From Sediminibacterium sp. (GTDB lineage: Bacteria > Bacteroidota > Bacteroidia > Chitinophagales > Chitinophagaceae): DNA of 42,306 nucleotides. The notes beneath the pieces are model-generated. The model saw only the letters and a list, made by a program, of their open reading frames with translations, was not told the DNA's origin and made no database searches. Position 1 is the stretch's first letter. Each line of letters starts with the position of its first letter. This document shows, in pieces, positions 11,047-11,382 of the stretch. Where the stretch lies: the NCBI GenBank assembly GCA_030158535.1, contig JAOASV010000203.1, positions 1 to 42,306 on the forward strand. Reading direction: 5' to 3'. A program made the position numbers and the translations under genes.

Positions 11047-11382
11047 ATGAAAAAATTTGGCTTACTCATTTTTCTATTCGCATTTGTAGGTACTTTAAAA
11101 GCGCAAAAAATATTTGCAGTAGACTACGCGTCACAAGCAGATGTAAAGGTTTTTGTTGTTAAATACGAAAGTCAGGCAGATCTTAAAGTATACAAGGTCA
11201 AATATGAGAGCCAGGCTGGTGACAATAACGGCAAATGGTTTTTTACCTCCTATGCTTCACAATCAAAAAAGAAAATCTTTTTTGTAGATTACGAAAGTCA
11301 AGCAGACGTTAAAATATATTTTGTTGATTACGAAAGTCAGGCTGGCTGGCGTAATAGTGCCAAGCGTTATTTATTTTATTAA
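11047..11382 (+). CDS. Small secreted YxSQA-repeat protein (DUF6150-like)
   Basis: Signal [20 protein letters not shown], then six tandem ~13-aa repeats K-[IVW]-[FY]-x-x-x-Y-[AE]-S-Q-[AS]. Family name is from memory. Confidence 0.75.
11107..11349 (+). repeat. Six in-frame tandem repeats (13 aa, one of 16 aa) inside the DUF6150-like gene
   Basis: [13 protein letters not shown] / [13 protein letters not shown] / [16 protein letters not shown] / [13 protein letters not shown] / [13 protein letters not shown] / [13 protein letters not shown]; recurrent nucleotide core TACGAAAGTCA[A/G]GC. Confidence 0.9.

Follow-up and report, generated by a model that had tools for sequence, protein, structure and literature searches.

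The closest structural matches of the protein considered here are to Q9PR55 of Ureaplasma urealyticum (PDB 8iwa, 8iwb, and 8jrm), a small protein of similar length that was predicted to form a 7_1 knot, with the homologous pair P73136/Q9PR55 predicted as 5_1/7_1 (PMC9278004), and whose 7_1 torus knot is reported to have been confirmed by crystallography (PMC13352647, PMC11223836). The Knotted Solenoid fold of Brevundimonas is also a reported knotted repeat protein, described in the available part of its report as a 3_1 knot in homodimeric β-solenoids (PMC13123833), and is absent from the PDB matches of our protein. The latter belongs to DUF6150, a known family with no assigned function, which our literature search found named in no paper, and our predicted model suggests that the DUF6150 fold may resemble that of the protein with the most complex knot so far known.

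The DUF6150 gene lies at 11047–11382 on the forward strand of the window, the 42,306-nucleotide stretch of Sediminibacterium sp. DNA analysed here, and encodes 111 residues plus a stop: a signal peptide, an array of six YxSQ[A/S] repeats, and a short C-terminal cap. The reading frame, its strand, its signal peptide, and the six repeats with a C-terminal tail were all correctly called in the original prediction, which gave the mature protein as 91 residues; the likely cut at A19|Q20 leaves 92, with 91 requiring cleavage one residue later. The 19-residue signal peptide (11047–11103), followed by a Gln20 that is invariant in our 81-row alignment, predicts that the protein is exported. Unit 1 (13 residues, 11107–11145) carries the loop YASQA at 11125–11139, and is followed by unit 2 (13 residues, 11146–11184, loop at 11164–11178), unit 3 (16 residues, 11185–11232, loop at 11203–11217), unit 4 (13 residues, 11233–11271, loop at 11251–11265, with the invariant Trp64 of the alignment), unit 5 (13 residues, 11272–11310, loop at 11290–11304), and unit 6 (12 residues, 11311–11346, loop at 11329–11343). 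The C-terminal cap (11 residues, 11347–11379) contains the likewise invariant Trp101 and, in the model, a short helix (H104–110). The loop tyrosines fall at residues 27, 40, 53, 69, 82, and 95, a spacing of 13, 13, 16, 13, and 13 that divides the array into two triplets, with a three-residue insertion (the GDNNG region, counted within unit 3) sitting between units 3 and 4.

The suggested assignment to DUF6150 was borne out by a Pfam search, in which the protein matched PF19647 with 80.8 bits (gathering cut-off 27, E = 7.6e-23) over profile positions 6–97 of 98, as a full-length member. All 81 aligned members match the same family, and the window protein shows no departure from it, being an ordinary, regular representative of its commonest class, YxSQ. 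The E value, together with the 230 related stretches found in a scan of GTDB contigs (80 fetched, most titled Bacteroidota), places the repeat far beyond chance. Occurrence is patchy, with DUF6150 matches in 20 of 396 sampled genomes of the phylum, 49 of 295 of the class, and 19 of 101 of the genus, and with a single match in the window genome. Searches with PADLOC and NCBIfam gave no match, nor did phage and plasmid records; weak matches to CBM and dipeptidyl-aminopeptidase families were set aside as chance level, the carbohydrate-binding Pfam scores falling below cut-off. A made-up repeat probe was also scored against Pfam and for Q9PR55, and carries no weight for the window protein. In one homologue (L100:985-1701, reverse strand) the DUF6150 units are N-terminal in a longer protein that also has a Ser-rich region and a hydrophobic segment and weakly matches SH3_3, and another DUF6150 gene (L082:4974-5279, forward strand) lies on a putatively viral IMG/VR contig of 266 kb, where few of the neighbouring genes have PHROG matches.

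Our family set comprises 161 distinct proteins, 149 of them with regular loops, and among these 149 the loop tetrapeptide is near-constant across the six units of one protein and different between proteins, with motifs including YESQ, YENQ, YxHQ, YESR, YDYQ, NQAY, SKYD, AEYK, WKSE, YKSE, and FKSE. At loop offsets 0–3, unit-to-unit agreement inside one protein is 0.89/0.68/0.92/0.87, compared with 0.66/0.36/0.48/0.52 between proteins at the matching unit. The strands show the reverse, with agreement at offsets −7, −5, −3, +5, and +6 of 0.06–0.32 within a protein and 0.56–0.74 between proteins, such that each strand is specific to its unit and conserved between proteins, and the two patterns change over abruptly where loop meets strand. 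Shuffling units among proteins lowers loop tetrapeptide uniformity from 0.839 to 0.503 ± 0.006, and 99 of the 149 proteins have the same residues at loop positions 0, 2, and 3 of every unit, against a shuffle mean of 2.2 (largest 8); the strand columns are the better control, since shuffling ignores phylogeny, whereas the strands have the phylogeny of the loops but lack the effect. Of the proteins in the 81-row set, 48 have Ser in all six units, 29 have Asn in all six, and four are mixed. Identical residues also recur at equivalent turns in the side-chain ladders of parallel β-helices, of which asparagine ladders are an example. What is new here is that uniformity inside each protein, and joint variation between proteins, extends to entire tetrapeptides with many different chemistries, on strands that remain unit-specific and conserved. 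Exceptions exist, with 15 of the 149 proteins lacking a loop pattern common to four units, and with non-uniform loops in degenerate relatives (L097, L102, and L168–L170), which occur as tandem pairs of DUF6150 proteins in one genus. In L153 the loop is a shorter SFPD in units 1, 2, 4, and 5 and SKSEA/SKSLA in units 3 and 6, a 3+3 arrangement consistent with the two-triplet anatomy.

When the loop columns are left out of tree building, 17 Ser/Asn changes are counted on a tree of 81 proteins and 22 on one of 108 genes compared by DNA, and the twelve uniform motif classes require 34 changes on a quick tree and at least 11 by class number alone. The number of independent switches is nevertheless uncertain because the trees are poorly resolved: no more than two Ser/Asn changes are needed to satisfy the well-supported branches, and a single Asn clade is not rejected by the AU test (p = 0.117). 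The clearest case of a switch comes from gene position, in the syntenic orthologues lying between PorZ and PnuC genes, where a single Ser/Asn difference spans all six loops, with Ser in all six units at L011 and L014, and Asn in all six at L035, L040, and L070. These loci are mostly titled Crocinitomicaceae, and their PorZ proteins are 72–78% identical between the Ser and Asn groups. Adjacent paralogues at L020 carry YESQA six times and AEYKA six times, and uniformity therefore belongs to each protein and not to the genome. Disjoint pairs differing at the Ser/Asn position number 37, 32 of them in all six units, counts that are illustrative only as the pairs are not phylogenetically independent.

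The best AlphaFold2 model, built from 81 sequences, has a mean pLDDT of 87.6, reaching 92–98 in most ten-residue blocks of the mature protein, and is the one confident model of five, the remaining four having pLDDT values of 42–46; a single-sequence model (pLDDT 43.5) was discarded. The best four Foldseek matches of this predicted model in the PDB are all structures of Q9PR55, namely 8iwa_D (E 8.2e-4, probability 0.95), 8iwa_A (E 1.2e-3, probability 0.99), a chain of 8iwb (E 5e-3), and 8jrm, a solution structure titled 7_1 knotted (E 0.018). They are the sole credible ones, with all other matches at a probability of 0.05 or less (34 matches up to E 10), and a viral structure library gave no significant match. 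The matches to 8iwa_D and 8iwa_A indicate local fold similarity between the predicted model and Q9PR55; however, superposition is poor (TM 0.28–0.42, rmsd 9.9–11.2 Å), with TM values of at most 0.42 falling short of the 0.5 above which the global arrangement would be the same. Furthermore, among PDB sequences, where Q9PR55 is assumed to be present, neither family profile (A1 or A3) nor any of four single queries found sequence homology to that protein up to E 10. The proposed link to a 7_1-knotted family thus survives at the level of fold but not of global superposition or sequence profile, whilst the description of that knot as trefoil-like was wrong, 7_1 being a seven-crossing torus knot, and our literature search did not turn up the name ‘Septknot’. 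We see roughly even chances that DUF6150 proteins form a deep torus knot of type 7_1 or 5_1, which would serve mainly for extreme extracellular stability and would be compatible with either function discussed below. The restriction of credible matches to Q9PR55 and the predicted 5_1/7_1 topologies of its homologous pair point this way, and a chain circling a torus twice would be compatible with the 3+3 spacing; the low TM values and the lone confident model count against it, as does the tendency of AlphaFold2, according to the available part of one report (PMC11795689), to yield confident yet unrealistic solenoids from repeat sequences. An ordinary unknotted β-solenoid is an unlikely alternative, agreeing with the tandem strand-turn units of the model but not with the PDB search, in which no chain described as a β-solenoid appears among the 34 matches up to E 10. 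Between-strand covariation, aimed at separating a solenoid from an interleaved torus, gave highest-scoring pairs that probably track subfamilies.

The original prediction also held that the repeats persist at the DNA level through recent duplication or gene conversion, by which one loop would be spread to six units. Loop uniformity itself is what such copying would produce, and the proposed motif TACGAAAGTCA[AG]GC is exact in units 2, 5, and 6 (11164, 11290, and 11329; chance expectation 0.41 with up to two mismatches), leaving 14 nucleotides common to three of the six units, but units 1, 3, and 4 use other codons. Synonymous codon agreement at matching loop residues across the family (0.53) is hardly above that expected from local codon use (0.49), the strands being at 0.53 against 0.52, and in the window gene loop agreement is below expectation (0.39 against 0.46). 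Both TCN and AGY codons are used in 49 of the 94 proteins whose third loop position is Ser in five or more units, and the intervening strand residues show no homogenisation. Loop uniformity is therefore not the result of recent DNA copying, and homogenisation at the DNA level is a highly improbable explanation, with older conversion events followed by codon drift being possible. We instead read the lockstep of the loops, from sequence comparison, as the product of selection, acting either on homotypic contacts between the loops or on six equivalent binding sites. The best explanation, held with about as much belief as doubt, is that DUF6150 is an exported mini-protein presenting its six loops in one homotypic array on a conserved scaffold. 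Six β-strands, each with its own conserved sequence, would form a compact two-by-three scaffold with a fold related to that of Q9PR55, each strand running into a short helical loop, and the six loops would meet in a ladder or ring in which each packs on copies of itself, such that mixed arrays would be disfavoured and the six would tend to change together. The resulting rigid array may offer a stable periplasmic or extracellular surface. Motif uniformity alone would also fit six equal ligand sites, and the 15 intermediates, the poorly resolved trees, and the degenerate relatives weigh against homotypic packing. Its main rival is multivalent binding, with the loops as putative sites for a repetitive target such as a polysaccharide, a mineral, or an oligomer; the uniform motif would set specificity, and a change of target would therefore drive all six loops to change. 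The export signal, the aromatic residue at offset 0, 2, or 3 of the main uniform motifs, the side-by-side paralogues with different motifs, and the wide variation in motif chemistry on a retained scaffold would all suit binding, which we nonetheless consider somewhat doubtful given sub-threshold carbohydrate-binding matches, motifs that differ among organisms of one genus, and the lack of a conserved gene neighbourhood. Homotypic packing remains the favoured reading. A bolder one, which we consider somewhat less likely than not, is that DUF6150 proteins are small, exported, and probably torus-knotted, with a loop motif that would be free provided that all six match, and with loops switching all-or-none by selection and not by DNA copying.

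If this loop rule is true, the family is a natural experiment in which many uniform loop sets have been placed on one conserved scaffold, allowing one to ask how six sites co-change when gene conversion is not at work, and whether homotypic arrays go together with knotted topology. Additionally, DUF6150 proteins, many of which come from Bacteroidota, are small natural test cases for asking whether a 7_1-like fold is widespread.

In the window, the DUF6150 gene is preceded by a gene for a protein with DUF4838 and F5/8 type C domains and followed by one for a Sortilin/BNR protein, with DUF4838 also upstream in a close relative (L005). The glycan-degradation setting noted in the original prediction is therefore local and not a feature of the family, as no neighbour family is widely common to DUF6150 loci among 137 flanking proteins, the commonest families, NMN_transporter (8) and PorZ (5), coming from a few related loci. 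A PnuC-type NMN_transporter gene begins a few bases downstream of DUF6150 at L011, L012, L014, L033, L035, L040, L050, and L070, and in the four loci checked it is followed by a gene for an AAA_28 protein, an arrangement resembling a nicotinamide riboside salvage operon.
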